DNA from: Bacillota bacterium
GTDB lineage: Bacteria > Bacillota > Clostridia > Oscillospirales > Feifaniaceae
Direction: 5' to 3'
DNA: 41,391 nt
Assembly: GCA_030705925.1 (NCBI GenBank)
Contig: JAUZPM010000012.1
Location: forward strand, 1-41,391
The notes beneath the pieces were generated by a model. The model was not told the origin of the DNA, made no database searches, and saw only the letters and a program-made list of their open reading frames with translations. The translations under genes were made by a program, and so were the position numbers. Positions 12,428 to 36,695 of the stretch are shown here, in pieces (positions within the stretch are counted from its first letter, which is position 1; each line of letters starts with the position of its first letter).

Positions 12428-12739
12428 CTATAAATCCTGAATATTCATTTTATCTATTTCGCTGTTTTTCTTGTTTTTCGTCCTGAAGTCATAATACATC
12501 AAAAGCATGACTGCTGTAGGCATATTGCATACAATAAGCAAAATCACGGATGCAACGAATGCCCAAAATGAAAAACCGTTCCAGAAAACTTTAATAAAAT
12601 TTGGGATGCTTATCAAAATTGAAATGATTAAACTGATTGCCGGTAAAACGAGTCCCGCATACTTGTACTTTTTAAGAAATATTTGAATGATAACCATCGC
12701 TATAAAAATAAAACCTATTACCAATAAAATTGAGCCCAT
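12428..12739 (-). CDS. Small multi-pass membrane protein of unknown function
   Basis: This 103-residue protein is almost entirely hydrophobic, with three to four predicted membrane segments (about 3-21, 27-47, 55-75 and 70-85) and a short charged C-terminal tail (RTKNKKNSEIDKMNIQDL). I do not recognise a specific family. It starts 5 nt after the DUF2089 regulator, and the pair is framed by a promoter upstream and a terminator downstream, so it is most likely the regulator's target or partner. A role as a membrane sensor or envelope-stress effector would fit but is a guess. Confidence 0.7.
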   Translation of the reverse strand: MGSILLVIGFIFIAMVIIQIFLKKYKYAGLVLPAISLIISILISIPNFIKVFWNGFSFWAFVASVILLIVCNMPTAVMLLMYYDFRTKNKKNSEIDKMNIQDL

Positions 12740-12744
12740 AACAA

Positions 12745-13041
12745 TTACTCCTTTTTTGTCTTTTTGTATTCAGAAATCAAAATTTTCGCAGTCCCGAAAT
12801 CAATATTTTCATTGACCGCAAGCCTTTTCACAAGCGAAATATAAGGGTCGTTGTCAGTATCCTCTCCAATCTTTATTTTTTGGATAAGCCTGTCAAGCCG
12901 CAGGCGTACTGTCGGATATGTTACTTTATATTCCCCCGCAACTTCTTTAAGGGACCCTGAAGCAAGCAAAAATTTTTTTACAAACGTCAAATCCTCTTCA
13001 TCTAGATTTGCCATCCATTCTGGCACGATCTCAATCGGCAT
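12745..13041 (-). CDS. DUF2089-family helix-turn-helix protein
   Basis: This 98-residue protein opens MPIEIVPEWMANLDEEDL and contains FVKKFLLASGSLKEVA followed by a helix-turn-helix-like stretch YKVTYPTVRLRLDRLIQKI (about residues 38-57), the hallmark of the DUF2089 family. Members are thought to be DNA-binding regulators, often next to small membrane proteins. Many have an N-terminal zinc ribbon, which is absent here. The AGAGGTGATCGG ribosome site precedes the ATG. The promoter region carries four AATATTA boxes, which could be its own operator. Confidence 0.8.
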   Translation of the reverse strand: MPIEIVPEWMANLDEEDLTFVKKFLLASGSLKEVAGEYKVTYPTVRLRLDRLIQKIKIGEDTDNDPYISLVKRLAVNENIDFGTAKILISEYKKTKKE

Positions 13042-13058
13042 CCGATCACCTCTTTAAC

Positions 13059-13133
13059 AATATTAAGCATATCATTTAATTTTATTAAAGTCAATATTAA
13101 ATTTATTTTTAATATTATTGCATGTAAATATTA
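13059..13133 (-). promoter_or_regulatory. Promoter with four AATATTA boxes upstream of the DUF2089 gene
   Basis: On the minus strand, TTGACT (13094-13089) and TATGCT (13071-13066) are 17 nt apart, a good vegetative promoter. AATATTA occurs at 13059-13065, 13093-13099, 13111-13117 and 13127-13133. One copy abuts the -10 box, one overlaps the -35 box, and two lie upstream. The arrangement suggests an operator, but the whole stretch is very AT-rich. Confidence 0.5.
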
Positions 13134-13144
13134 ATTAGAAATAA

Positions 13145-13171
13145 AAAACTGCCTTTTTAACAGGCAGTTTT
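13145..13171 (-). terminator. Terminator after the TauE/SafE gene
   Basis: The inverted repeat AAACTGCCT / AGGCAGTTT around a short loop is followed by T-rich sequence on the minus strand and lies 17 nt past the stop at 13188. It probably ends the whole glp transcript. Confidence 0.8.
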
Positions 13172-13187
13172 TATTCTAAACGCTCTA

Positions 13188-13550
13188 TTATTTACCGAAC
13201 AGCATTTTGACCGACATCAGCAGCATAAAAACAGCAAAGCCTTTTTTGAGTATTTCATCTGGAATATGCTGCACGATTTTTCCGCCTAGCATAGCTCCTA
13301 TCAAAACAGTTATGCATATTAATATAGCTGCTTTTAAATCAACATTGCCCTTTTTATAATATTCAAGAAAAGCCAGTATCCCGACAGGAGGAAGGAGAAC
13401 CGCTAAAGATGTGCCTTGAGCCTTGAGCTGGCTGAAACCGCAGATGTAAATCAGCGCAGGAACAATTATGATGCCGCCGCCGATCCCGAAAAAGCCGCTG
13501 AGAATGCCGGCAAGCAAACCAACAGCAATAAAAATTAAAGCATTCGTCAT
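13188..13550 (-). CDS. TauE/SafE-family membrane protein, half-size
   Basis: This 120-residue protein matches one half of the TauE/SafE (DUF81) family of anion exporters and permeases. Its GLLAGILSGFFGIGGGIIIVP opening is the family signature, followed by LKAQGTSLAVLLPP and four hydrophobic segments. Full-length members have about 250 residues and two such halves, so this one would have to dimerise or pair with another half. No second half lies next to it. The start is the ATG at 13550, with GAAGGAAA upstream; a TTG seven codons earlier is in frame but less likely. The substrate is unknown. It is the last gene of the glp unit. Confidence 0.8.
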   Translation of the reverse strand: MTNALIFIAVGLLAGILSGFFGIGGGIIIVPALIYICGFSQLKAQGTSLAVLLPPVGILAFLEYYKKGNVDLKAAILICITVLIGAMLGGKIVQHIPDEILKKGFAVFMLLMSVKMLFGK

Positions 13551-13588
13551 GTTTCCTTCATTGCCTTTCAAGAAAATATATTTATATA

Positions 13589-14578
13589 TTAATCAAAGTA
13601 AATCGGATTTGTAAATAAGATTAAGCTTTCTCCCCGGTAAGCTGAAATTCTGTAAAATTTTTTGTTGGCATCGACTAGCAATTCACCTGAAACCTTACCG
13701 TTTTCCGCATTGTATGTATTCAATACCCCGTCAGCGGTGATAAGCATGACTTTATCGCCCTGTTTTAAACCGGTAACGCTGAATTTCAGCTTGGTATTCG
13801 GCATGGCTATCACTGAATCACCCATAACGCTTCTCCCATACTCAAGCGTCGCACCAGGTCCCCCTGCAGTAAGCGAGACATAGTTATGTCCATCACTCAC
13901 ACTCTCGAGTATGCCGCTTGCCGTTTTTTCTTTAACTAACACGCAGTTGACCGGAGAACGCCCTGTTGTGCCTTCGTGTGTGTCGCTTCCGCCTGTCACA
14001 GGTATTTTTCGGCCTTTTGCAAGCTCGCCCTGCCAAAAATCCATCGCTTTTTTATCGTCGTCAGTATAAACTCCGTTCCAGACCTCGATCATATCGTAAT
14101 TGCCGATAAAACCAAGATCCGGGCTCCAGTAATACTTCGGATCAAATGGATGATTGATTTGAACGAGAGCGCCCATGCTCTTTGCGTCAGCGTAATACAC
14201 CGGCCATAGTTCATTTGCATTATCTTTTGTAATATATTTCAACAGCGGATGAACAATACCAAGAATGTTAGCATGTCCAGCGCCCTGTTCCATTGTCTGC
14301 TCCATCCCCGGGATCAGGATGATGCCGCTTTTTTTGTATTTTGGTATTTCATCGTTCTGAGACACGATATTATGATCGGTAAGTGCAATGAAATCGAAGC
14401 CATCTTCCTTTGAATATTTGATGGTATCCGCAATACTGTACACTCCGTCATAACTGAATTTTGTATGAACGTGAAGATCTCCTTTGAGCAGAAAATATCC
14501 ACTGGTTTTTCCTGCGCACGACGAAAAAAGCGCCAGAGCCGCAAATAATAACCCCAGTATTAATATTTTCCTTTTCAT
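13589..14578 (-). CDS. PHP-domain lipoprotein (secreted metal-dependent phosphoesterase-like)
   Basis: This 329-residue protein starts with a lipoprotein signal (MKRKILIL... LFSSC, Cys21), so it should sit on the outer face of the membrane. The PHP metal-binding motifs are intact: GDLHVHTKFSYDG (about 33-45), ALTDHN, GMEQT, QINHPF and GGSDTHE. PHP enzymes hydrolyse phosphoesters with a cluster of two or three metal ions. A C-terminal beta-rich region of about 90 residues follows. The gene begins 1 nt after glpP. The ATG at 14578 is chosen because it opens the signal peptide; the longer frame upstream only reads through glpP. In this setting the substrate may be a glycerophosphodiester, but this is inference. 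Confidence 0.88.
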   Translation of the reverse strand: MKRKILILGLLFAALALFSSCAGKTSGYFLLKGDLHVHTKFSYDGVYSIADTIKYSKEDGFDFIALTDHNIVSQNDEIPKYKKSGIILIPGMEQTMEQGAGHANILGIVHPLLKYITKDNANELWPVYYADAKSMGALVQINHPFDPKYYWSPDLGFIGNYDMIEVWNGVYTDDDKKAMDFWQGELAKGRKIPVTGGSDTHEGTTGRSPVNCVLVKEKTASGILESVSDGHNYVSLTAGGPGATLEYGRSVMGDSVIAMPNTKLKFSVTGLKQGDKVMLITADGVLNTYNAENGKVSGELLVDANKKFYRISAYRGESLILFTNPIYFD

Positions 14579-14579
14579 A

Positions 14580-15146
14580 TTATACCGTCCACAGCTCGCT
14601 TCTGCCGGTTGAAACTGCAACAGCTCCGGCATTGAGTGCAGAGATAACATCATCTTTAGTTGAAACCATGCCGCCTGCAATGATCGGAACCGATGTATGT
14701 TTTGCGAATTCGCTTATAACACGCGGTATGATTCCGGGCATGAGCTCAATCATATCTGGTTTAAGGCTGTCCGCAGTACGGATGCCGGTTTCAAAGGATT
14801 GGTTGTCTATCATAAAAATGCGTTGAATAACAAACGTTTTATCACTTAAATGTTTGATCTGGGCAGTTCTTGTCGTTATTATGCCGTCAGGCTGTATATT
14901 ATTAATAATAAAGTCAACAGCTTTATTGTCACGTCCCAGCCCCTCAAGCAGGTCAATATGCAAAATCGCGTTTTTTCCGCTGTTTTTTATCTTGTTGATA
15001 AGTCTTCCAACATTCAATATATCAGCATTCAGCACAAATATATTGGATACAGGCGACAAAAGCGCGGCATCTAAATGTTCCTCATTGCGTACAGCGGCAA
15101 TTATGGGATTTTGACCGAAACTATCTCTGATTCTCTTCTTTTCCAT
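14580..15146 (-). CDS. glpP: Glycerol-3-phosphate-responsive antiterminator
   Basis: This 188-residue protein is a full-length GlpP. The family has a TIM-barrel-like fold, binds glycerol 3-phosphate, and in Bacillus stabilises or antiterminates glp leader mRNA. Recognisable stretches are NPIIAAVRN, IFVLNADILN, HIDLLEGLGRD, DGIITTR, IELMPGIIPRV and the phosphate-binding end PIIAGGMVSTKDD...GAVAVSTGRSELW. It sits in the middle of the operon it probably controls. Leader hairpins in front of the glpA-like gene and of the araM-like gene are its candidate targets. The ribosome site is GGGGG, 9 nt before the ATG. Confidence 0.93.
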   Translation of the reverse strand: MEKKRIRDSFGQNPIIAAVRNEEHLDAALLSPVSNIFVLNADILNVGRLINKIKNSGKNAILHIDLLEGLGRDNKAVDFIINNIQPDGIITTRTAQIKHLSDKTFVIQRIFMIDNQSFETGIRTADSLKPDMIELMPGIIPRVISEFAKHTSVPIIAGGMVSTKDDVISALNAGAVAVSTGRSELWTV

Positions 15147-15150
15147 TTTT

Positions 15151-15525
15151 TTAATCCCCCAATGTTAAATTTGATGTGGCAATTACATTGACTCCGGTCC
15201 CTAAAATGTCCTTTAAAACGACCTCTCCCACTCTAACAGGCGCTTTCAATGTAATTTTATTTATCTCTCTCATGGCGTCAAATAGAATCGCCTTAGGAAT
15301 GGGCTGTTCCGTTCTCACCGGAATTACCCTTGCTCCTCCGTCCGTTAGCACTTTTACAGTAGTGGTAAGCGTTCTGACCGGAGTCAGCACTTCGCTTCCC
15401 GCATACTTTTCACCGCGGCGACAGCTGTTGCCGGTAATACTCTCAACTTTACCGTCTTCAAGAACAACTGTGATCTCACAGCCGACCGGGCATATGATGC
15501 ACGGCAGTTTTCTGATCTCTCTCAT
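15151..15525 (-). CDS. DUF1667 cysteine-motif protein of the glycerol-3-phosphate oxidation set
   Basis: This is a 124-residue protein of the DUF1667 family. The N-terminal CxxCxxxC motif (C9, C12, C16) plus a further cysteine in NSCRRG suggests an iron-sulphur cluster or metal site, similar in shape to the N-terminal cluster of molybdopterin enzymes. The family is nearly always encoded next to a GlpA-like oxidase and a second FAD oxidoreductase, as here. It probably acts as the electron-transfer subunit of an anaerobic glycerol-3-phosphate dehydrogenase. It lies 2 nt after the oxidoreductase gene, with a GGAGGG ribosome site. The exact role is inferred from gene order. Confidence 0.87.
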   Translation of the reverse strand: MREIRKLPCIICPVGCEITVVLEDGKVESITGNSCRRGEKYAGSEVLTPVRTLTTTVKVLTDGGARVIPVRTEQPIPKAILFDAMREINKITLKAPVRVGEVVLKDILGTGVNVIATSNLTLGD

Positions 15526-15527
15526 AT

Positions 15528-16796
15528 TCAGCCCTCCACAGCTTCTACCCTGAATGTAATGTCATTGTTCAGTTTGCGCAGTTTATCATACGGAAGATCC
15601 ACATGTTCCATTTCACCTGGCGCGACAACCGGCTTTTTGGCAAGATAAAGCGTATTATCACCTGATTCGATAACTACCCGTACATTACGGTAAATATTGT
15701 CGACCCTAAAGTAAAAACGCTGTTTCTTGTCGCCTTCAGGAAGTGGAAGTTCAAGGCGTTGGGGAACAATATAGCGAACACGTCCGCCAGCCTTTGTATG
15801 GATCACCTGTTTAGACTGAAGCTTGATGCCATCAATGAATGCTGCAGCGTTAGCGCCTGCTGTTGCTGCCTCAGCTGTGACATTATCTACAAGGTCATGC
15901 ACATGAAGGATATTTCCCGCGGCAAAAACCCCGGGAACAGAGGTCTCAAGAAACTCGTTCACCACAGCGCCTCCGGTTACAGCGTCAAGCGTGATACCGG
16001 CAGACTTGGCAAGCTCATTTTCAGGAATCAGACCCACTGACAATAGTAGTGTATCACATTCAACGTATTCTTCGCTACCCCTAATCACATTTCTTTTTCC
16101 ATCAACTTTTGCGATCGTAACGCCGGTCAGCCTATCTTTGCCGTGAACCTCCACAACTGTTGTGGAAAGCTTAAGCGGTATGTCAAAATCATCGAGGCAC
16201 TGAACGATATTCCGTTTAAGCCCGCCTGAATAAGGCATTACCTCGCAAACCATTTTTACCTTTGCGCCCTCCAGCGTCATACGGCGTGCCATGATAAGCC
16301 CTATGTCCCCCGACCCAAGGATTACGACTGTTTTGCCGGGCATATATCCTTCTATATTTACGAATTTTTGAGCCGCTCCCGCTGTGAATATGCCTGAAGG
16401 TCTTTCACCGGGTATATTGAGCGCGCCGCGTGTTCTTTCTCGGCATCCCATTGCAAGAACAATAGCTTTCGCCTGGATTTTATACTGCCCCTTTTCGGGA
16501 TTTACAACAGTGACTTTCTTGTCTGAAGTCATGTCTATTGCCATAGTGTCTGTGCGTATATCTATTTTTCTTTCTCTCGCCTTTTCAATAAAACGCCAGG
16601 CGTATTCGGGGCCGGACAGTTCTTCGTTAAACACATGAAGACCGAATCCGTTATGAATACACTGTTTCAGTATGCCGCCGGCATCTGTTTCACGGTCTAT
16701 AACGATCATGCTGCGGATACCGCTGTCATATGCGGAAATCGCGGCTGCAAGCCCTGCCGGTCCGCCGCCCAGAACCAGTAAATCAGTTTTTTCCAC
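15528..16796 (-). CDS. NAD(P)/FAD-dependent oxidoreductase, second subunit of the glycerol-3-phosphate oxidation set
   Basis: This 422-residue flavoprotein has an N-terminal FAD-binding Rossmann motif (LVLGGGPAGLAAA), a second nucleotide-binding fold (VILGSGDIGLIMARR) and the late FAD motif (SVPGVFAAGNI), the layout of pyridine-nucleotide-disulphide oxidoreductases. I place the start at GTG 16796, 4 nt after GGGGGGAT. The frame is open up to 16835 but then overlaps the previous gene without a ribosome site. It probably passes electrons from the GlpA-like subunit to NAD or another carrier. It differs from E. coli GlpB, so I give no symbol. Confidence 0.88.
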   Translation of the reverse strand: MEKTDLLVLGGGPAGLAAAISAYDSGIRSMIVIDRETDAGGILKQCIHNGFGLHVFNEELSGPEYAWRFIEKARERKIDIRTDTMAIDMTSDKKVTVVNPEKGQYKIQAKAIVLAMGCRERTRGALNIPGERPSGIFTAGAAQKFVNIEGYMPGKTVVILGSGDIGLIMARRMTLEGAKVKMVCEVMPYSGGLKRNIVQCLDDFDIPLKLSTTVVEVHGKDRLTGVTIAKVDGKRNVIRGSEEYVECDTLLLSVGLIPENELAKSAGITLDAVTGGAVVNEFLETSVPGVFAAGNILHVHDLVDNVTAEAATAGANAAAFIDGIKLQSKQVIHTKAGGRVRYIVPQRLELPLPEGDKKQRFYFRVDNIYRNVRVVIESGDNTLYLAKKPVVAPGEMEHVDLPYDKLRKLNNDITFRVEAVEG

Positions 16797-16807
16797 AACT
16801 ATCCCCC

Positions 16808-18244
16808 CTATTTGGATCGACCCGTGAGAATCCACGAATCTTTACCTTTTTTTGTGATCTTATCCTGCGTTACACCCAGTTCACGTGCAAGTATGTCGAC
16901 GACCGAAGGTCCGCAGAAACCGCCCTGACAGCGTCCCATGCCTGCTCTAGTGCGCCTTTTAACGCCGTCCAGCGTTCTTGCTCCCACATTTCTGTGAATC
17001 ACATCAACGATTTCCGCCTCGCTGACCTTCTCACAGCGGCATATTATTTTTGCATAAAGCGGATTTTCAGCACATGCTGCTTTAAGCTTTGCCTCGTTCA
17101 TGTTAACAAACCGTTTGACAGGACGGCGAATAGGATTGAACTCGGAATTTTTAGACAGTTTAAGTCCCTGTGCCCTCAGGATTTTAACGGCATATTCAGC
17201 AATTGCAGGTGCCGCGGAAAGACCTGGCGATTCTATTCCCGCAACATTTATGAAATGTGAATGGACATGTGAAGCCTCGATTATGAAATCCCCTTTTGGA
17301 ACCAGAGTTGCCCGAAGCCCGGCAAAGGATGTGATCACATCCCGAAAATTCAGATCAGGCAAAATACGCTTTGTCTGTTCCAGGACATGTCCTATCCCCT
17401 CAGAAGTCGTCGCCTTGCTTTCTTTATCGTCAACATCCTCAGCGGTAGGTCCCACCAGAAGGTTGTGTTCAACAGTGGGTGTTACAAGAATGCCCTTGCT
17501 GAGAGCGTTCGGAAGCTGGAAGATCGTGTGTTTTACAAGTGTTCCTGCCGATTTGTCCATGAGCATGTATTCGCCCCGTCTGGCACGGATATGAAACGAA
17601 TTATCACCGATCATTGACGCTATGCTGTCAGCATATACTCCTGCGGCATTTACAATATATCTGCACTCAATAGTTCCTTTTTCAGTTGATATACTGAATA
17701 TACCCTTTGAATAATCGATAGCTTCAACAGCTGTTCCAAGCATGACCGTAGTGCCGTTGTCCGCCGCATTTTCGCTTGCCGCAATCGCAAGCTCATAAGG
17801 ACCTACTATAGCAGAAGTTTTTGCATAAAGCGCAGCATACACTTCTTTTGAAAGATTTGGTTCTAAGGCTCTTGCTTCCAAACCTGATATTATTGATAAC
17901 CGTTCGATGCCGTTTTCTATTCCTCTTTCATACAGCGCCTTGAGCTTTGGGTAAAGCTCTTCCTCAAGACACAGAACAAGCGCCCCGTTGTTTTTATATT
18001 CTACGTCAAGCTCTTTTGCAACCTGTTCCATCATCATGCTGCCCTCGCGATTGAGTATCGCTTTCAGCGTGTGAGGTTCAGCGTCGAACCCGGCATGGAC
18101 AATTGCAGAATTTGCAGCTGTAGTGCCCATCGCAACGTCGTCTTCCTTCTCGATCAAGCAGATAGATACGTTGTACCTTGACAGTGCTCTTGCAGTCAAA
18201 GCGCCGACTACCCCTGCACCTATGATTGCAACATCATATACCAT
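16808..18244 (-). CDS. GlpA-like FAD-dependent glycerol-3-phosphate dehydrogenase with [2Fe-2S] C-terminal domain
   Basis: This 478-residue protein is a DAO-family oxidase: the N-terminus YDVAIIGAGVVGALTAR binds FAD, AANSAIVHAGFD is typical of the GlpA/GlpD/L2HGDH group, and GLRATLVPKGDFIIE lies before the late FAD motif. The last 90 residues form a BFD-like [2Fe-2S] domain with cysteines in ICRCEKV and GRCQGGFCGP, as in anaerobic GlpA. It should oxidise sn-glycerol 3-phosphate to dihydroxyacetone phosphate. 2-hydroxyacid oxidation is the main alternative, but glpP and DUF1667 next door favour glycerol phosphate. It is the first gene of its unit, with AGGAGG 7 nt before the ATG and a long leader carrying a terminator hairpin. 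Confidence 0.88.
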   Translation of the reverse strand: MVYDVAIIGAGVVGALTARALSRYNVSICLIEKEDDVAMGTTAANSAIVHAGFDAEPHTLKAILNREGSMMMEQVAKELDVEYKNNGALVLCLEEELYPKLKALYERGIENGIERLSIISGLEARALEPNLSKEVYAALYAKTSAIVGPYELAIAASENAADNGTTVMLGTAVEAIDYSKGIFSISTEKGTIECRYIVNAAGVYADSIASMIGDNSFHIRARRGEYMLMDKSAGTLVKHTIFQLPNALSKGILVTPTVEHNLLVGPTAEDVDDKESKATTSEGIGHVLEQTKRILPDLNFRDVITSFAGLRATLVPKGDFIIEASHVHSHFINVAGIESPGLSAAPAIAEYAVKILRAQGLKLSKNSEFNPIRRPVKRFVNMNEAKLKAACAENPLYAKIICRCEKVSEAEIVDVIHRNVGARTLDGVKRRTRAGMGRCQGGFCGPSVVDILARELGVTQDKITKKGKDSWILTGRSK

Positions 18245-18391
18245 ACAAAACCTCCTAATAATTTTTCTGTCGCATCTAGTTGCGTCATTATTGAAGTTTC
18301 ACAGGATTACTTAAAATAGCATTAACCCTGTATTGTCTGGTTTGAGCATTTCCATTATTATTTTCTCTAAAGTCTATAAACAAATGCAAAA

Positions 18392-18441
18392 AGAGCCGTG
18401 ACAAAAAGCAGCACAAACGTGATGATTTTTGCTACGGCTCT
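18392..18441 (-). terminator. Leader attenuator hairpin before the glpA-like gene
   Basis: On the minus strand AGAGCCGT (18441-18434) pairs with ACGGCTCT (18399-18392). An inner CAAAAA/TTTTTG stem lies between them, and TTTTTGCATTTG follows. The hairpin lies between the predicted promoter (18473-18501) and the first gene (18244), so transcripts must pass it before reaching glpA. This is the classical position of a GlpP-controlled terminator. It could also stop read-through from the isomerase gene upstream. Confidence 0.7.
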
Positions 18442-18472
18442 AATTCTCTCGCCATATATTAAGTTCACTATT

Positions 18473-18501
18473 ATTATATACACAATTTTAAAATGTGTCA
18501 A
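18473..18501 (-). promoter_or_regulatory. Sigma-A promoter of the glpA-like operon
   Basis: A perfect consensus is present on the minus strand: TTGACA (18501-18496), 17 nt, TATAAT (18478-18473). The expected transcript start is near 18466, leaving a leader of about 220 nt before the ATG at 18244. Confidence 0.85.
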
Positions 18502-18544
18502 CCCATATTCGCAAATTCCAGTATTAACAATTCATCCCACTAAA

Positions 18545-19435
18545 TTATTTATCGGCAAGCGACAGACAATACATGCCGATATCATAAGAAAACTTAGCGG
18601 CTTCATCCTTCAATACGTCAGGCATCCTGTCGTTAAGCCCGTGGATCTCATATGTAAAGTCTCCCTCATAACCAATCTGTTTTAAAACCGGCATGATCTT
18701 TTCCCAGTTTACTGTTCCGAAAAAGGGCGGCAAGTGAGCGTCGTGATTTGCCCTGTTGTCATCAACATGTGTAGCTTTCAGGCGTTTTCCTATACTCAGC
18801 AGTGAAGCGCACTGGTCGTTATACATAAGGTTGCCGTGACCGAAATCCCAGCATATCTGAACGTCTTTATCGTTAAACGAATCCACAAGATCTATCAGTT
18901 CTTCCGTTGTCGCGGTATATCTGCGCTTCATTTTTTGAGGTGAAAATTCAGCCATGTTCTCTATGGCAATGCCCACATTATGCTTCTTTGCAAATTCAAT
19001 AACAGATGAATAAAATTCATGATTCGTCTTTTTGCTCTGTGCATTATCGTGCTGATTATTGACTACATCGGTAATAGCATGCAAGATCGCCCATTTTACA
19101 CCCAGTATACTGCTTGCAATTATCGAACGCTCTGTCAGCGTCATAAACTGCTCCATTGTAACTATTTCTCTTCCGTTAGGATAAAAGCAATAGATGGGCA
19201 GGTGCGATTGGGTAAACTCCATTCCAAGGCTGTCGCTCTCCTCACGCAGGCGCAGGATATAATCTTTCCAGTTTTCCTCATTCAAAACATTATAGATTTC
19301 GAGAACCGGGCAGAAATTAGCGTCCATGACTCTGAAACCGGCTTTGTGGCAGCGGTGCAAGCATTCGATATACGGTGTATATTCTTCGCTAAATCTTTTC
19401 ATTCCGAAAAGATTGGTTGATGTTGATAAACGCAT
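18545..19435 (-). CDS. Sugar phosphate isomerase/epimerase (xylose-isomerase-like TIM barrel)
   Basis: This 296-residue protein belongs to the AP-endonuclease-2/xylose-isomerase-like TIM-barrel superfamily. Candidate metal ligands are visible in order: IAIENMAEF (Glu), CWDFGHGNL (Asp, His), HVDDNRANHDAHLPP (His, Asp) and TYEIHG (Glu). Members isomerise or epimerise sugars, inositols and related polyols, and sequence alone does not give the substrate. It follows the solute-binding protein gene across a terminator-like hairpin and probably closes the uptake unit. The setting suggests a compound related to glycerol phosphate or a glycosyl-glycerol. GAGGG lies upstream of the ATG. Confidence 0.8.
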   Translation of the reverse strand: MRLSTSTNLFGMKRFSEEYTPYIECLHRCHKAGFRVMDANFCPVLEIYNVLNEENWKDYILRLREESDSLGMEFTQSHLPIYCFYPNGREIVTMEQFMTLTERSIIASSILGVKWAILHAITDVVNNQHDNAQSKKTNHEFYSSVIEFAKKHNVGIAIENMAEFSPQKMKRRYTATTEELIDLVDSFNDKDVQICWDFGHGNLMYNDQCASLLSIGKRLKATHVDDNRANHDAHLPPFFGTVNWEKIMPVLKQIGYEGDFTYEIHGLNDRMPDVLKDEAAKFSYDIGMYCLSLADK

Positions 19436-19471
19436 TTTTTATGACCCTCTCACTCAAAAATTTTCAAAAGC

Positions 19472-19502
19472 AGAGCCGGACAGAAAGATTCCATCCGGCT
19501 CT
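19472..19502 (-). terminator. Intercistronic hairpin after the solute-binding protein gene
   Basis: A 9-bp perfect stem (AGAGCCGGA / TCCGGCTCT) with a 13-nt loop lies 7 nt after the stop at 19510, and TTTTGAAAATTTTT comes slightly later on the minus strand. It is probably a partial terminator or mRNA stabiliser that keeps binding-protein mRNA more abundant than the isomerase message. Its outer stem shares AGAGCCG / CGGCTCT with the glpA leader hairpin. Confidence 0.65.
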
Positions 19503-19509
19503 AATCTGA

Positions 19510-20904
19510 TTATTTCTCAGGATTTGATTTTGCGTAATCCGAAAGTAAGGTATTGCACTTTTCGGTTATATTTTTAATTGTTGTGTCTATATCCTGTTTG
19601 CCCTCAGAAAGGCTTACGATATTATCTATTTCAGCTGCTTTAAAATCATCATAGGACGGAACCCAAGGCTCCTGCATATATTCATAGCCCTTAGAATCAC
19701 TCAAAATATTCAGAGGAATCTGTGATTTAGGATCAGAAGAAAGGAAATCTTTAAGTGCCTGATTATTATAAGCATCATTGTTAAGGGGATAATATCCCGT
19801 CTTAATGAACCAGTTAGCGCAAACATCAGGAGTGGTCAGGTATTTTTCGAACTCCCAAGCGGCATCAAGAGTCTTTTCGTTTCCGCGGTTAAGAAGGAAT
19901 ATTGCAGAGCCGCCGATAGCTGTTCCGGGGTTGCTCTCTGCATTTACGCGTGGAAATTTCGCGATACCTATGTCGATCTTCTTTGAAGGATCAGATGCGT
20001 TAGTGACCTGATTCTTCTCAAGAGTTCTAAGCTGAACCATAGATTCTGTATACATTGCAGTGCCCTTTGCCTCAAAGCTTGTGCGTGGGCTTGTATCCAT
20101 ACAGTCAAGGGCACCGGTGTCGATGACCTTTTTCCATTCTGTCAAGAAGGTCTTCATTGTCCCTTCAGTGTCAAATATGACTTTTGTAGGAAGTCCGGCA
20201 CGGCCGTCTTCTTTTTCAGTCTGGAAAGTCTTTGTCTTCTGCATAGGTATCCAAGAGGATAACTGATAGATGCCCGGCTGTGTGGAAATACCATAGCGTG
20301 TGATCTTCGCTCCGTCTTTTTTCATAAGCTTTTTTGCATAATCAGCCAAATCCGCTATAGTAACAGGTGGTTTTTCTGGATCAAGTCCTGCCTCTTTGAA
20401 CATATCCTTGTTATAGTATAGAACGATAGATGAGTTTGAAAGCGGAAGACCAAGCAGTTTGCCCTTGTAAGTAACTGCCTGAAGAGCATTTTTATTGAGT
20501 TTGCTCATATCGATGCTCTTATCTTTTGCTATCATGTCATCAGCCCATACAACGTCTGGCGATTGCTTAATATCAAACGCACCGTTTGAATTCAAATGGA
20601 TGATATCAGGATAGTCGCTTTTAATTCCAGCCTGAAGCGCAGCCTTCATTTTTGTTGAAGTGTCTGTATAGCTGCCCTGAGCTATAACCTGAACATTGAT
20701 GTTCTTCTCTTTTCCGACAGTATTGTTGAAATCTGCGGCAATGCTGTTTAAAACATCAAGTGTTGCTCCGGACAAAGCTGTCCACATAGTAACTGTGGTA
20801 ACCCCGCCGGTTGTAGTGGTCGCGCCTTCATCCTTGCTTCCGCATGCGGTAAACAGTGTTACTATCAGCGCGGTTGCAAGAACAAGTGAAATGATTTTTT
20901 TCAT
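19510..20904 (-). CDS. ABC transporter solute-binding lipoprotein (UgpB-like, family 1)
   Basis: This 464-residue protein starts with a lipoprotein signal (MKKIISLVLATA...LFTAC) and has the typical family-1 binding-protein elements: VTMWTALSG near the N-terminus, DIIHLNSNGAF, NKDMFKEAGLDPEKPP, GTAIGGSAIFLLN and AAWEFEKYLTTPDV. It captures a sugar or sugar-like ligand outside the membrane for the two permeases encoded just upstream. G3P or a glycerophosphodiester (the UgpB ligands) fits the neighbourhood, but sugars are equally possible for the family. The ATG at 20904 is chosen because GGAGG lies 9 nt upstream; the TTG two codons earlier is too close to that site. Confidence 0.9.
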   Translation of the reverse strand: MKKIISLVLATALIVTLFTACGSKDEGATTTTGGVTTVTMWTALSGATLDVLNSIAADFNNTVGKEKNINVQVIAQGSYTDTSTKMKAALQAGIKSDYPDIIHLNSNGAFDIKQSPDVVWADDMIAKDKSIDMSKLNKNALQAVTYKGKLLGLPLSNSSIVLYYNKDMFKEAGLDPEKPPVTIADLADYAKKLMKKDGAKITRYGISTQPGIYQLSSWIPMQKTKTFQTEKEDGRAGLPTKVIFDTEGTMKTFLTEWKKVIDTGALDCMDTSPRTSFEAKGTAMYTESMVQLRTLEKNQVTNASDPSKKIDIGIAKFPRVNAESNPGTAIGGSAIFLLNRGNEKTLDAAWEFEKYLTTPDVCANWFIKTGYYPLNNDAYNNQALKDFLSSDPKSQIPLNILSDSKGYEYMQEPWVPSYDDFKAAEIDNIVSLSEGKQDIDTTIKNITEKCNTLLSDYAKSNPEK

Positions 20905-20962
20905 AACCAACAGCCTCCATTCAAAGATTTAATTTTTATTATGCTCATTATTGTTAACATAA

Positions 20963-21835
20963 TCAGCCTGTAACAGATCCCGCCGTGATACCGCGAACAA
21001 GATTCCTCTGGAAGAACAGGAATATGAATATTGACGGTATTAGAATTATAGCAATACCCGCGAAAACAGGCGCCTTGCTCGGATTTTCAGGGAATGACAG
21101 CATAGTTATTCCGACCTGAACCGTTCTCATCATCGGCTTATCTGTGACAAGCAGAGGCCATAGATAAGCGTTCCATAAACCAACAAATGAAGAAATACCG
21201 AGTGAGGTGATAACCGGTTTGGATACTGGAACGCATATCTGCGTGTAAAACCTGAAGCTTCCGCACCCGTCGATCATTGAAGCTTCACGCAGCGAACCGC
21301 TGATCGTCATGAAGTTTTGGCGGAACATGAAAATATGTGTCGCGGAAACAAAATATACGATCATTATTCCCATATAGGTATTACGCAGATGCATATGTGT
21401 AACAGTAAGATAATTTGAAATAAGAAGCGCATCACCAGGTATCATCATAGTTCCAAGCACTGCAAAAAATAAAAATTTCTTGCCTGCATAATCAAAAAAC
21501 GAGAATGAAAACGCGGCCATCGTTCCGATTATCAGACGTATGAGTGTTCCAATGCCGGCAATGATAAGTGAGTTGAGCATAAAACGCGGAATGTATGAAT
21601 GGAACAAAACTGTATTGAAGTTTTCAAGGTAGGCGAATGACTGTGGAAGTATGGTCGGCGGATACTGGTCAAAGACAGCGTCGTTTTTAAAGCCGCCCAT
21701 AAATGCATAAAAAATTGGGAATACGATTATGCATCCGATTGCGAGATTGATTAAAGAAGAGATGTACGAACGAAAACCCTTTTGCTTTGCTTCGGCATAG
21801 TAATTTGCTTTTTTCCTAAGTTTTTCAGAACTCAT
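20963..21835 (-). CDS. ABC sugar/glycerol-phosphate transporter permease (UgpE/MalG-like)
   Basis: This 290-residue inner-membrane protein has about six membrane segments and the binding-protein-dependent permease EAA-like loop (REASMIDGCGSFRFYTQICVP, about residues 190-210) that contacts the ATPase. Other family marks are NSLIIAGIGT and GLWNAYLWPLLVT. The ATG overlaps the stop of the preceding permease gene by 4 nt, so the two are translationally coupled. It forms the channel with the 21832-22791 product. Confidence 0.92.
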   Translation of the reverse strand: MSSEKLRKKANYYAEAKQKGFRSYISSLINLAIGCIIVFPIFYAFMGGFKNDAVFDQYPPTILPQSFAYLENFNTVLFHSYIPRFMLNSLIIAGIGTLIRLIIGTMAAFSFSFFDYAGKKFLFFAVLGTMMIPGDALLISNYLTVTHMHLRNTYMGIMIVYFVSATHIFMFRQNFMTISGSLREASMIDGCGSFRFYTQICVPVSKPVITSLGISSFVGLWNAYLWPLLVTDKPMMRTVQVGITMLSFPENPSKAPVFAGIAIILIPSIFIFLFFQRNLVRGITAGSVTG

Positions 21836-22791
21836 CCGTAAAACACCCCTTTCTTTTCATATGCGAAGTTGAAGAAAACGAAAATAAAGGTGAGTAAGAA
21901 CGCAAGTATGCTCACCGTTGCGCCGAGAGCATAGTTTGAGCTCTGGAAACCTGAAGAATAGATATAATAAATAAGCGAAGTTGTGGTCTTGTTAGGTCCG
22001 CCGCTTGTAAGAATAAGCATCGGAGACGAAACCATAAGTGAACCGATAGTGCAGGTGCAGAATACAAAGAACAGCGTTGGAGATATTATAGGAAGCGTCA
22101 CATGCCAGACCTTCTGAAAAGCGTTTGCACCTGCAAGATCAGCATTTTCGAGAAGATCATTCGGAACGCCCCTTACGGCAGCAAGCAGCAGCATATAATG
22201 GAAACCGACCCCCGCCCATACGGCAAGGAATACAAGAGAAGGCAATGCATATGTCTTGTTTGCAAGCCAGTTGATATCTGTTTTATTTGACATAATACCA
22301 AGCATGTTCAGCCAGTAATTCACAAGACCTACTTTCGGATTATACAGCTGTTTAAATATCAGCGCAGCGGCAGACATTGACACAGCCATAGGCATTGCAT
22401 ACATAGTCTCATAAACGCTGGAAAAAAGCCTCTTTCTGTTTGCAAGCAAAGCAAGACAAAGCGGAACAACCACCGCAAATGGCAGCTCCATTGCCGCATA
22501 CTTCAATGTAACGATTAAAGCGTTTATGAAGTCCTTACTTTTAAAGACATTTAAATAGTTTTCAAAACCGATAAATTCTCTGATGTTTCCCCTGACGTCA
22601 ACTCGGCTTAACGAATACGCAATTGTTTTTACAAACGGGTAGTATGAAAACATGATTATAAAAACAAATACAGGCAAAAGGAAAAGATACGGCTCGAGAA
22701 CTTTGTGAAGCGGCTTCGGTTTTTTGCGAGGAATCGGCTTTCCGCTCGGACCGATTATCATTTTCCCACGCCCGCGTACTGCTGTTGTCAT
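21832..22791 (-). CDS. ABC sugar/glycerol-phosphate transporter permease (UgpA/MalF-like)
   Basis: This 319-residue permease opens with a basic cytoplasmic stretch (PSGKPIPRKKPKPLHK) and then LLPVFVFIIMFSYYPFVKTIAYS, the usual start of the UgpA group. The EAA loop appears as ENADLAGANAFQKVWHVTLP, and six membrane segments are seen. AAGGAGGG lies 6 nt before the ATG. No ABC ATPase gene lies in this cluster, so the transporter must borrow an MsmX/UgpC-like ATPase encoded elsewhere. Confidence 0.92.
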   Translation of the reverse strand: MTTAVRGRGKMIIGPSGKPIPRKKPKPLHKVLEPYLFLLPVFVFIIMFSYYPFVKTIAYSLSRVDVRGNIREFIGFENYLNVFKSKDFINALIVTLKYAAMELPFAVVVPLCLALLANRKRLFSSVYETMYAMPMAVSMSAAALIFKQLYNPKVGLVNYWLNMLGIMSNKTDINWLANKTYALPSLVFLAVWAGVGFHYMLLLAAVRGVPNDLLENADLAGANAFQKVWHVTLPIISPTLFFVFCTCTIGSLMVSSPMLILTSGGPNKTTTSLIYYIYSSGFQSSNYALGATVSILAFLLTFIFVFFNFAYEKKGVFYG

Positions 22792-22846
22792 TAAAAACCC
22801 TCCTTACCTCAAAATATTTATAAAATTATTCTCTCACTCTAAATAC

Positions 22847-23653
22847 TTACAGGATAGGCACCATATCCCCTACCCCGCCGAATACAAAGCTGGCTTTAAA
22901 CTTGTTCTGCTCATTGTATTCTTTTTCTGAAGTTTCTCCGGATAAAACAAGAATCGAAGAAATCCCGGCATTGGCCCCGATTGCAATATCGGTGTATAAT
23001 CTGTCTCCTACCATTGCGATCTCTTCTCTTTTTACTCCGTACTTGTCAATAACACTGTCGACCATCCCCTTTGTCGGCTTTCCTATCACAAGCGGAGCAA
23101 CACCTGTTGCGGCTTTGAACATTTCTATCATTGCGCCGGTGTCCGGCATGAATTTATCACCGGGCAGCGGACAGTTGAAATCCGGATGAGTTGCAACGAA
23201 GGGAACCCCTTCCCTTAAATAATCACAGGCAACCCAAATCTTTTCATAAGTGAGTGTCTGGTCAAAACCAAGAACTACGAAATCCGGCTTGCCGCCTCTG
23301 CCTTTAACAAGTTTAATACCCTCTTTTTCAAATGACTCTTCAAGGTCAGGCGTTCCAAGCAGATAAACAGAGGGATTTTTCTTTTGCCTTTTTAAATAAA
23401 TAATAGTTGCATCGCCTGAAGTGAAAACATCCTCCGTTGTAGCCTTTATCCCAAGACGGTTAAGTTTTTCAACATAAGTTTTCTTGTTTCTCGATGAGTT
23501 ATTTGTCAAAAATATGTATTTTTTCCCTTGCTTTTTAACCTGATTTAAAAACTCCATTGCTCCGGGAAGCAACTCGTCTCCGAGATAGATGGTTCCATCC
23601 ATATCAAGCATAAAAAATCTAAGAGTTGAAAATTTATTTAAATCGTTTGTCAT
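22847..23653 (-). CDS. HAD-IIA family sugar/glycerol phosphate phosphatase (NagD/AraL-like)
   Basis: This 268-residue protein has all HAD motifs: FMLDMDGTIYLG (nucleophile Asp and acid Asp), FLTNNSSR (motif 2), the lysine in IGKPTKGM (motif 3) and MVGDRLYTDIAIGANAG (motif 4). The cap is the C2a type of the NagD group. These enzymes dephosphorylate small sugar phosphates, glycerol phosphates or p-nitrophenyl phosphate with broad specificity. The pairing with an AraM-type dehydrogenase repeats the araL-araM order of Bacillus subtilis. It may dephosphorylate glycerol phosphate or detoxify a side product. The gene starts 11 nt after the dehydrogenase gene, with AAGGAAG as ribosome site. Confidence 0.9.
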   Translation of the reverse strand: MTNDLNKFSTLRFFMLDMDGTIYLGDELLPGAMEFLNQVKKQGKKYIFLTNNSSRNKKTYVEKLNRLGIKATTEDVFTSGDATIIYLKRQKKNPSVYLLGTPDLEESFEKEGIKLVKGRGGKPDFVVLGFDQTLTYEKIWVACDYLREGVPFVATHPDFNCPLPGDKFMPDTGAMIEMFKAATGVAPLVIGKPTKGMVDSVIDKYGVKREEIAMVGDRLYTDIAIGANAGISSILVLSGETSEKEYNEQNKFKASFVFGGVGDMVPIL

Positions 23654-23664
23654 GGTTAACTTCC

Positions 23665-24939
23665 TTATCCGTTATATTTATATGAAAAATTAGCAATAAG
23701 ATCAGACATACGCAGCACCGTAAGCCTGCGTCTTACATATCTGCCGTAAACTATACCTTTCTCAACAAGATCGTCTTCGACATGGGCCTCAAATGGCTCT
23801 GTCGCCGCATGAGCTGACTTAAGAATAGCCTTGATTTCATTCGATGACGGCAGATCGAGAAGTATCTTTCTCACTTCAGGCCACACTGCTTTTAGTCTCT
23901 CAGTGTCGACCTCATCAAGCGGATCAGGGGTGTTTTCATGTATAATACCAGCTGCAAGCGCGTCACCGAAAGCTTTTTTTATATCAGCGACCTGAAACGG
24001 CTTTGATGCTGTAACGATCGTTTCAAGCTGCGCGATCCTGTGGTAGTAGTCGGCAACGATTCCTTCGGCTATTCCGACCTTTTTGCCGTGAAGCTCCTCT
24101 TTGATTCCGTCACGTAAGAACATCATCTCCCAGAAATGAGAGATATGGTGTTCCGCGGCAGATGCGGGTCTGGAATTTCCGGCAAGCTGCATAGCAACTC
24201 CTGAAATAACCAGTGCTTCCATCAGTGATCCCGCCGCCTCAGGCTCATTTGTTGAAACCTTGTCGGCGAGATCTTTGCATTTATTTACGGCTTTGACAGT
24301 AAGATCAGCAATTGCATTACAGTAATATTCGCCTGTTACTAGGTTTGCGATCTTCCAGTCTGCAAGAGAGGTATATTTCCCCATAATATCGGCAAAACCG
24401 GCAGCCTTAAGTCTGATAGGCGATCTTCCCAAAATATCACAGTCTGCAAATATGCCTACTGGCGATTTGCCCGGATGCGTGTTTTTAAATCCGTTTTCAG
24501 TGATTGCTGAAACAGTTGATGCAAACCCATCCATTGATGGAGCGGTAGCGAATATGGCATAATCAATGCCCTTCTTGAACGCGGTCAGACGGCTCATGTC
24601 ATTGATCGATCCTGTTCCTACCGCAAGGATAGCCCCGGCGTCAGCAGATTCTACCATAATCTGCTCCTGCGCTTCACTCGTAGCATTATGCATATCATCA
24701 TAAAGCGTCATAGAGATTTTGAATCCGGCTTTTTCAAGTGAAGGGATCAGCCCGTTAGATGCGGAGAGAGTATTCTCATCAGCCACAACGTGAAGTCTGT
24801 CAGGAAAACCGAGTTCTCTTAGCATATTGCCCATGTTATGTACAGCTCCGCTGTAGATCTCCACTTTCTTTAGCGATACGGTGTGTTCCCTTCCACAGGG
24901 ACATCCCTTTAAATCGGTTAATAGTGCTTGCAGATCCAT
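23665..24939 (-). CDS. sn-glycerol-1-phosphate dehydrogenase (AraM/EgsA type)
   Basis: This 424-residue protein belongs to the iron-containing alcohol dehydrogenase-like group that includes archaeal EgsA and Bacillus AraM. The NAD-binding loop (AVGTGSINDMSR), the FATAPSMDGFAS segment and the metal ligands (Asp near the middle, AEHHISHFWE and LHGKKVGI) are present. AraM interconverts dihydroxyacetone phosphate and sn-glycerol 1-phosphate, the enantiomer opposite to GlpA's substrate, and uses Ni2+ in Bacillus. It could make G1P for heptaprenylglyceryl phosphate or oxidise imported G1P. Its place as first gene of an uptake operon favours oxidation. GGAAGGAAG precedes the ATG. Confidence 0.9.
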   Translation of the reverse strand: MDLQALLTDLKGCPCGREHTVSLKKVEIYSGAVHNMGNMLRELGFPDRLHVVADENTLSASNGLIPSLEKAGFKISMTLYDDMHNATSEAQEQIMVESADAGAILAVGTGSINDMSRLTAFKKGIDYAIFATAPSMDGFASTVSAITENGFKNTHPGKSPVGIFADCDILGRSPIRLKAAGFADIMGKYTSLADWKIANLVTGEYYCNAIADLTVKAVNKCKDLADKVSTNEPEAAGSLMEALVISGVAMQLAGNSRPASAAEHHISHFWEMMFLRDGIKEELHGKKVGIAEGIVADYYHRIAQLETIVTASKPFQVADIKKAFGDALAAGIIHENTPDPLDEVDTERLKAVWPEVRKILLDLPSSNEIKAILKSAHAATEPFEAHVEDDLVEKGIVYGRYVRRRLTVLRMSDLIANFSYKYNG

Positions 24940-24984
24940 TTGATTCTTCCTTCCATTTGCATAAAAAATGCGTATTACGCCAAA

Positions 24985-25046
24985 AAAGAGATTCCCTAAT
25001 AGACGTCATAGATGGCGAACTACTCACAAAACTCAGAAATCTCTTT
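24985..25046 (-). terminator. Leader attenuator hairpin before the G1P dehydrogenase gene
   Basis: On the minus strand AAAGAGATT (25046-25038) pairs with AATCTCTTT (24993-24985) around a 44-nt loop, and the 3' arm runs into TTTTTT. The hairpin begins about 7 nt after the predicted transcript start and ends 45 nt before the ATG, so it looks like a transcription attenuator. GlpP is the obvious candidate regulator because it is encoded in the same island. Confidence 0.6.
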
Positions 25047-25059
25047 GCGGTTAAATTCA

Positions 25060-25089
25060 ATTATATATTCATATGTCAAATAAGGTCAA
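25060..25089 (-). promoter_or_regulatory. Promoter of the araM-ugp uptake operon
   Basis: On the minus strand, TTGACC (25089-25084) and TATAAT (25065-25060) are separated by 18 nt. The expected start is near 25053, giving a leader of about 115 nt. A second TTGACA lies inside the spacer but is too close to the -10 box. Confidence 0.7.
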
Positions 25090-25357
25090 CAAATTGTTAT
25101 AACTATGTAAAATGAAAATTTACCATAAAACTTGTACAAAAGTTTTTGTATCGATTTGTCATAATGATAATATAAATTCGCACTAAAATCAAGAGTTTAT
25201 TAATATTTTTTTAATTATATTGTGCACTATGCCCAATTAATCTATTTATATCGCTAATTATATGCCAAATTATTGTGTAAAAATGGCAAGTAACGTTTTA
25301 TGCAATATTAATAAACGTATTAAAAAATTGTCCAGAATCATCCCAATATGGAAAAAA
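25090..25357. other. Gene-free, very AT-rich spacer
   Basis: This 268-bp stretch between the uptake operon promoter and the htrA terminator has no credible reading frame on either strand. I see only short AT-rich partial inverted repeats (for example TGCCA...TGGCA near 25262-25287). It might hold upstream activator or catabolite-repression sites, but I find no clear cre-like element. Confidence 0.6.
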
Positions 25358-25385
25358 AATAAGGGACATTATATTGTCCCTTATT
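25358..25385 (-). terminator. Strong terminator of the regulator/kinase/htrA operon
   Basis: An 11-bp perfect stem (AATAAGGGACA / TGTCCCTTATT) with a 6-nt loop is followed on the minus strand by TTTTTTTT. It lies 27 nt after the htrA stop. Confidence 0.92.
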
Positions 25386-25412
25386 CTTTGTGTTTAGCTA
25401 TGTTACTATGTT

Positions 25413-36384: not shown

Positions 36385-36652
36385 TTTAAACACTTTGAAG
36401 AGGAATAGTAGGCATTCATTGCAGACTTAAGAGAGCTGTTGGTTGGTGTGAAACAGTGTCTAAGCGAGCGCTGAACTCACCTCGGAGTGGCTCACTGAAC
36501 AAAGTAGGCGCAGTCGGATGCCGTCCGTTATTTCGGCTGGGTATCGGTTTTTATGACCCGTACCTTAAAGTGTGTTCCTTTTGGAACAAACAAGAGTGGT
36601 ACCGCGGAAGTTACGTCTTTCGTCTCTTATGAGGCGAAGGGCGTTTTTTTAT
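36385..36652 (+). promoter_or_regulatory. T-box riboswitch, leucine specifier, controlling leuA
   Basis: The leader has the classic parts of a T-box. Stem I carries AGAGAGCTG...GGTGTGAAACAG (about 36430-36456), and the specifier region GAACTCACC has CTC (Leu) at 36476-36478. The 14-nt T-box core AGAGTGGTACCGCGG lies at about 36593-36607, and the terminator is at 36613-36649. Uncharged tRNA-Leu should pair its anticodon with CTC and its acceptor end with the UGGN bulge, favouring antitermination and leuA expression under leucine starvation. A leucine specifier before a leucine-biosynthesis gene is internally consistent. Confidence 0.95.
36613..36649 (+). terminator. T-box terminator hairpin
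   Basis: A 14-bp stem including G-U pairs (ACGTCTTTCGTCTC with GAGGCGAAGGGCGT) around a TTAT loop, followed by TTTTTTT. It is mutually exclusive with the antiterminator that contains the GGTACCGCGG core just upstream. Confidence 0.9.
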
Positions 36653-36695
36653 TGCAATTAATTATATTTACATATTGAAAACGGAGGTAATACGT

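Follow-up and report, generated by a model that had tools for sequence, protein, structure and literature searches.

Directly behind glpP, the gene of a glycerol-3-phosphate responsive antiterminator, the genome of a Bacillota bacterium of the family Feifaniaceae (assembly GCA_030705925.1) carries a gene for a PHP-domain protein with an export signal. The locus raises the question of what such a metallohydrolase may do, at the cell surface, in an operon of glycerol-phosphate metabolism. The window analysed here is the whole stretch of 41,391 nt of contig JAUZPM010000012.1, named C12 among the contigs of this 95% complete genome.

The PHP gene and its export signal

The glpP gene (PF04309, 201.9 bits) occupies positions 15146-14580 of the minus strand, and the PHP gene, encoding 329 amino acids, runs from 14578 to 13589 on the same strand. 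It begins 1 nt past the end of glpP, as the earlier note had stated. The ATG at 14578 is the best start codon; the alternative TTG at 14680, given in the ORF list, would overlap glpP. The ATG was preferred over this longer frame because the signal peptide is then N-terminal and a partial Shine-Dalgarno sequence, GGACGG, is present 6 nt before it.

The encoded protein starts with MKRK and a hydrophobic segment; LFSSC, which contains Cys21, comes next and is followed by the PHP domain. Its N-terminus, MKRKILILGLLFAALALFSSC21 (14516-14578, minus strand), was judged by eye to be a signal of the Sec/lipoprotein type. The lipobox-like LFSSC passes a PS00013-like pattern and fails a stricter, G+LPP-like one, F being a non-standard letter at position -3. 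The solute-binding protein encoded in the same island (LFTAC) has the same F at -3 and gives the same outcome with both patterns. By its sequence, the PHP protein is probably lipid-anchored on the outer face of the cytoplasmic membrane, where Cys21 would carry the lipid.

The earlier note regarded the export itself as remarkable, PHP enzymes being mostly cytoplasmic. This argument loses its force, since exported relatives are known and the same genome encodes five giant exported ones. According to the available text of PMC5460133, Sb-PDE of Sphingobium is made with a signal peptide, and the N-terminal sequence determined on the purified protein is consistent with its cleavage; CehA-type carbamate hydrolases also carry signal peptides (PMC8292978, available text). 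Ten matches to NF038032 were found in the genome studied here at E 0.001. Five of them lie in giant proteins of 2405-3617 aa (L210-L214, on contigs C10, C17, C1, C4 and C38), four over the cut-off. A signal peptide was recognised by eye in the giants whose N-terminus is covered (L210 is cut at its start), and among the three scanned with Pfam, all three have lamin-tail domains and two have S-layer homology domains. The export of the PHP protein is by itself unsurprising.

Metal site and family of the PHP protein

By its sequence, the protein is a CehA/McbA-type metallohydrolase. It matches NF038032 (CehA/McbA family metallohydrolase) with 185.4 bits against a cut-off of 80 (1.7e-54, profile positions 4-315 of 315). 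The sole Pfam match at E 0.001 is PF02811 (44.1 bits against a gathering score of 26.4, E 3.5e-11); PF03009, the GDPD/GlpQ family, is not matched. Nine metal ligands, H36, H38, D44, H69, E93, H102, H143, D199 and H201 (HxH, D, H, E, H, H, DxH), are invariant in the alignment of the PHP protein with nine relatives, and they correspond to the nine given for No-PDE in the available text of PMC11656708. The earlier description of a lipoprotein with an intact metal-binding set thus stands for the ligands and the export signal, while the lipobox fits only one of the two patterns.

The protein shares with the CehA/McbA family the full-length domain match over the cut-off, the ligands of its relatives and the existence of exported members. 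It differs in being short, a putative lipoprotein, devoid of the N-terminal domain of its nearest relatives and encoded in a glp operon. To our knowledge, proteins of the CehA/McbA type are common, and the natural substrate is known for a minority of them. The activity reported for CehA and McbA themselves is the hydrolysis of carbamate esters (PMC8292978, available text), which the family assignment does not imply for the PHP protein.

Organisation and probable regulation of the glp operon

The PHP gene is the fifth of six genes in one predicted transcription unit of the minus strand, glpA-glpB-DUF1667-glpP-PHP-tauE, with gaps of 11, 2, 4, 1 and 38 nt (glpB read from GTG 16796 and tauE from ATG 13550). 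The names in this island were given by resemblance, because most equivalog-level matches lie below the curated cut-offs. The glpA gene (16808-18244) encodes an FAD glycerol-3-phosphate dehydrogenase-like protein with a BFD domain (NCBIfam matches below cut-offs). Profile matches identify a glpB-like pyridine-nucleotide-disulphide oxidoreductase (15528-16796) and a DUF1667 protein (15151-15525). The last gene, tauE (13550-13188), encodes a half-length protein of the TauE/SafE family (PF01925, profile positions 127-237 of 237), and a terminator-like hairpin detected by a hairpin scan follows at 13172-13144. The PHP gene is therefore not the last of the unit; it lies inside a tight glp unit and not at its edge.

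A sigma-70-type promoter, identified by consensus match only (TTGACA-17-TATAAT, 12/12), lies at 18473-18501 on the minus strand. It is the sole 12/12 site listed in the region 12700-25500, where 35 sites were found against 27.4 expected in shuffles. The leader of about 220 nt that follows folds well, with 2 of 200 shuffles folding equally well (z -2.32). At its start lies a strong intrinsic-terminator hairpin (AGAGCCGT...ACGGCTCT, then five T; 18392-18441, minus strand, -23.7 kcal/mol), the likely target of GlpP antitermination. As far as anatomy is concerned, this is the layout of the GlpP-controlled promoters of Bacillus, a promoter followed by a conditional leader terminator (PMC7086022, available text).

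The same anatomy is frequent in the class. By a crude measure, a terminator-like hairpin matched by at most 1 in 20 shuffles was present in 25 of 29 glpA regions; this count takes in the window and omits two more loci of insufficient length. A hairpin of -17 kcal/mol or better precedes 44 of 49 glpA genes, compared with 36 of 246 control genes from the same loci; this measure does not distinguish a leader terminator from the terminator of the preceding gene, a background that the control genes share. The 49 glpA genes were those with GlpA as the best island match that are preceded by a gap of 100 nt or more, and the controls were other unlabelled genes. The promoter, the terminator hairpin in the leader and this class-wide contrast make co-expression of the PHP gene under GlpP well supported by sequence, as the earlier note had supposed in placing the PHP gene under joint control with glycerol-phosphate genes. 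We infer from the same features that GlpP acts on the glpA leader. No further copy of this leader was found in the genome.

The neighbouring EgsA-Ugp unit and the proposed function

A second unit, of the same orientation, is located upstream of the glp unit. It begins with the gene of an EgsA/AraM-like glycerol-1-phosphate dehydrogenase (23665-24939; NF002022 183 bits, below the cut-off of 413 bits; PF13685 91 bits), followed by genes for a HAD-IIA phosphatase (22847-23653, profile match), for a UgpB-like solute-binding lipoprotein with two UgpE- and UgpA-like permeases (19510-22791, NCBIfam matches below cut-offs) and for a TIM-barrel protein of the AP-endonuclease-2 type (18545-19435, profile match), which is sugar-phosphate isomerase/epimerase-like. 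No importer ATPase gene was seen in this unit. Its leader contains a weak hairpin with a T-run (24986-25046) that is no better than shuffles (z -0.23), and no site shared between the glpA and EgsA leaders was found, 699 of 1000 shuffles scoring as high.

The enzyme and importer genes at 24939-19510 form the same set as the ara-type EgsA/AraM, HAD-IIA and ABC importer module, as in araLMNPQ of B. subtilis. The window copy differs in lying beside glp genes and in having importer parts that best match UgpB, UgpA and UgpE. The AraM protein of B. subtilis, a homologue of EgsA, has glycerol-1-phosphate dehydrogenase activity (PMC5059525, available text). A second EgsA/AraM-like gene is present in the genome studied here (L188:8112-9371, contig C51), its product being 44% identical to that of the window. 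Further along the window, a T-box leader (36386-36630, 137 bits), the only Rfam match, lies upstream of an isopropylmalate-synthase-like gene (36675-38357; HMGL-like, IPMS_D2, LeuA_dimer).

Taken together, the two units point, tentatively and with somewhat less than an even chance, to an exported, GlpP-controlled PHP hydrolase acting on a glycerol-phosphate (di)ester. In the presence of glycerol-3-phosphate, GlpP would let the polymerase pass the leader terminator before glpA, and the six genes from glpA to tauE would be transcribed as one. Outside the membrane, the metal site of the PHP protein would cleave a glycerol-phosphate (di)ester, e.g., deacylated phospholipid head groups or fragments of teichoic acid, and the glycerol phosphate set free would enter through the neighbouring Ugp-like importer. 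Inside the cell, sn-glycerol-3-phosphate would be oxidised by GlpA, GlpB and the DUF1667 protein, and sn-glycerol-1-phosphate by EgsA; the pairing of GlpA/GlpB with EgsA suggests that both enantiomers arrive. The export signal, the intact metal site, the place in the unit and the leader anatomy are the solid, sequence-based part of this proposal, whereas the glycerol-phosphate substrate and the preference for a diester over a monoester are the part to which the lower confidence applies.

Relatives of the PHP protein and their gene neighbourhoods

With the PHP protein as the query, matches were obtained in 1 of 8 genomes of the family (the protein itself), in 3 of 245 genomes of the order at 1e-20, in 5 of 391 genomes of the class at 1e-30 and in 2 of 398 genomes of the phylum at 1e-25. 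The samples are not independent of one another, as they overlap, and the genome studied here is part of every one, which leaves seven relatives from other genomes (L062-L066, L220 and L221), 33-39% identical according to the search tables. By BLAST, the nearest relatives have 28-37% identity; only these identities were used, as the tree of 14 domains was weakly resolved (L220, L006, L007, L009, L010 and L146 were not included, of which L009, L010 and L146 had no domain match or too short a one). The PHP proteins returned by a contig scan with the single PHP protein were all short or distant, and scans of viral sequences gave nothing of use.

In the stretches examined, none of the seven relatives has glp genes beside it. 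Their neighbours are of another kind: YdjC and an MFS_2 transporter in L062 and L063, MFS_2 and a GH38 alpha-mannosidase in L065, and GH38 (Pfam) with sugar-type ABC permeases, recognised by their match to the island permeases, in L220 and L221; the neighbours in L064 and L066 have no clear theme. GH38 mannosidases thus adjoin three of the seven sampled relatives. Among plasmids, 62 records match the PHP protein, and of the three examined, L001 and L002 have GH38 genes, while in L003 the PHP gene follows an ABC importer. Cytosolic-looking CehA-type PHP genes accordingly occur beside GH38 alpha-mannosidases both in clostridia (L065, L220 and L221) and on two Rhizobiaceae plasmids (L001 and L002), which hints at a glycan-related substrate for such genes.

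These neighbourhoods favour a different reading of the window protein, as an exported enzyme that would hydrolyse a phosphoester linked to a glycan or sugar, or another ester, descended from the carbohydrate-linked branch of the family and placed among glp genes by a lineage-specific accident or by a shared carbon-source timing. The GH38, YdjC and MFS_2 genes, the sugar-type ABC permeases near L003, L220 and L221, and the absence of glp genes beside every relative all speak for it. However, all seven relatives have an extra N-terminal domain that the window protein lacks, and none shows an N-terminal signal peptide by eye. The low identity makes a transfer of substrate weak, and the position of the gene in the interior of a closely packed glp unit also speaks against this reading. 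We consider this reading unlikely, albeit one to be taken seriously.

Comparison with characterised PHP enzymes

Whether the reaction would be that of a diesterase or of a phosphatase cannot be read from the sequence, nor can the choice between glycerol phosphate and glycan. The best solved relative of the PHP protein is 3E38 (phmmer 3.8e-4; profile 1.9e-14; Foldseek 1.1e-12 with a TM of about 0.5, obtained with a structure model of moderate confidence: pLDDT 66.4, pTM 0.61, seven rows). In the available text of PMC11656708, 3E38 is the only solved homologue named for Sb-PDE and No-PDE, both of which are called true diesterases. Because of this shared homologue, diester cleavage appears by analogy to be within reach of the branch to which the PHP protein belongs.

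The likeness to these two Sphingomonadaceae enzymes consists of the PHP fold, the nine equivalent ligands and, for Sb-PDE, the export signal, and it rests on the ligand list and on 3E38. The substrates tested with them are flame-retardant and other synthetic diesters, and the pocket residues are not conserved. When aromatic residues were introduced at two leaving-group positions of No-PDE, the activity shifted towards monoesters (PMC11656708, available text). V72 and D146 are the counterparts of the No-PDE positions 96 and 206, at which 3E38 has aromatic residues, as counted from the ligands without structural alignment, and the relatives vary at both, so that the pocket residues do not assign the PHP protein to either activity.

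The protein might also be an exported phosphomonoesterase that removes the phosphate group of organic phosphates outside the cell, such as glycerol phosphate or nucleotides, and supplies phosphate or glycerol. PMC11656708, as far as its text is available, describes PHP proteins as known above all for their roles as phosphatases and components of polymerases and assumes 3E38 to be a phosphatase. However, dephosphorylating glycerol-3-phosphate outside the cell would run counter to an operon for its import and oxidation, and among the island proteins covered by the Pfam and NCBIfam profile scans none resembles a phosphate-starvation gene product. On balance, this possibility appears improbable. 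That the protein is Sec-secreted and not lipid-anchored, or exported yet without catalytic activity, serving in binding or as a structural element, is very unlikely: the non-standard letter at -3 of the lipobox and the moderate structure model would allow it, but the nine metal ligands are kept and the solute-binding protein of the island shares the F at -3.

The glycerol-phosphate (di)ester hydrolase proposed above would belong to a small group. Among 623 homologues of Sb-PDE, a function is known for Sb-PDE alone, and the non-nuclease PHP enzymes counted as cutting phosphodiesters are Elen0235 and Sb-PDE/No-PDE (PMC11656708, available text); the PHP domains of PolX also cut diesters, those of DNA (PMC6616362, available text). 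In our literature searches, PMC5460133 was the only publication found that joins a PHP domain with a glycerophosphodiester. Among the matches listed, none described a glp-linked PHP lipoprotein, and none was found that joins a PHP domain with alpha-mannosidase and a phosphodiester, or a CehA metallohydrolase with a lipoprotein. If the proposal is true, the PHP protein would join these few enzymes and tie their chemistry to a natural nutrient.

Genes next to glpP in other genomes and the relation to GlpQ

The genomic setting of glpP was compared within the class, where glpP exceeds the cut-off in 130 of 391 genomes. The comparison comprised 125 neighbourhoods, one per genome, leaving out the genome studied here, the fragmentary G132 and G284, two unplaced genomes and second copies; glpP was recovered by tblastn in all 125 and typed by ORF picking in 119. 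A CehA-like PHP gene was found in one locus, L074 (longer stretch L222) of G390, in the order glpP, PHP, glpA, glpB, DUF1667. Its product (L222:8814-10181) scores 69.9 bits, below the NF038032 cut-off of 80, and has no signal peptide by eye. PHP proteins of another kind are encoded directly upstream of glpP in three loci (L146:4165-4929, L152:5587-6351 and L172:4382-5233), the genomes of which belong to one family; they are small, and the two scanned (those of L146 and L172) are nearest to the nucleoside-bisphosphate phosphatase/RNase AM models, below the cut-offs.

The search was also made from the side of EgsA. A match to it was present in 43 genomes, from which 20 neighbourhoods were drawn, one of them being the second copy of the genome studied here. 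No PHP gene lies beside EgsA in any of the 20; one (L197:1-611, G200) contains a GDPD-like frame whose N-terminus is hydrophobic. A recurrent link between glpP and PHP was rejected, as nothing beyond one distant case was found and the ORF-based counts were confirmed by tblastn. The earlier note had proposed recurrent linkage to glp genes as its own test, and the outcome, 0 of 7 relatives, one distant case in 125 glpP loci and 0 of 20 EgsA loci, speaks against it. The glp-linked exported PHP arrangement is so far a singleton in the samples, and this makes the case for a dedicated replacement weaker.

This replacement concerns GlpQ, for which the earlier note suggested the PHP enzyme as a non-homologous substitute. 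Its remark that no GlpQ-type phosphodiesterase is present nearby holds: there is no PF03009 match within the window, and the one in the genome, on contig C10, is a DUF4996-type protein in which no signal peptide was recognised by eye. GlpQ of Bacillus subtilis, a GDPD protein of the GlpP regulon, is a GlpP-controlled diesterase acting on wall polymers, analogous to the role proposed for the PHP protein, but it belongs to another family, whose profile PF03009 the PHP protein does not match. In the available text of PMC7086022, lipoteichoic acid is built of sn-glycerol-1-phosphate and wall teichoic acid of sn-glycerol-3-phosphate, and intact lipoteichoic acid is not hydrolysed by GlpQ. Since the island pairs GlpA/GlpB with EgsA, an enzyme that had taken over the GlpQ job, as an exported GlpP-controlled glycerophosphodiesterase unrelated to GDPD, might release sn-glycerol-1-phosphate from lipoteichoic acid or from the head group of phosphatidylglycerol. 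Such a takeover seems quite doubtful. The idea is a reasonable one insofar as a GDPD gene fills the slot after glpP in two of the 125 other loci, whereas the arrangement with PHP does not recur.

GDPD (PF03009) genes occur in three of the 125 glpP loci. In L166 (the same as L223) and in L157, the GDPD gene is the immediate neighbour behind glpP, and in L133 it lies two genes past it. The first two loci (L223:2943-8077 of G180 and L157:55-3666 of G014) have the order glpA-glpB-DUF1667-glpP-GDPD-HAD-IIA, the latter from glpB on, its glpA lying beyond the contig end, and GDPD overlaps glpP as called. They resemble the window in the same order through glpP with a phosphodiesterase family next. The difference is that their GDPD proteins have no signal peptide by eye, so that, as a precedent for an exported enzyme, they are not strictly comparable.

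In 30 of the 119 typed loci, glpA and glpB lie upstream of glpP (L157 is excluded, as its contig ends before glpA). The gene after glpP in these sets encodes HAD-IIA in eight, EgsA in one, GDPD in one and other proteins, some of them far away, in 17, and three have none. By these counts, the slot tends towards glycerol-phosphate enzymes and, counting L157, twice a phosphodiesterase family, not the CehA-type PHP. A PHP member within a regulated glycerol-phosphate operon, in the slot held by GDPD in two other genomes, provides a concrete and testable guess at its substrate.
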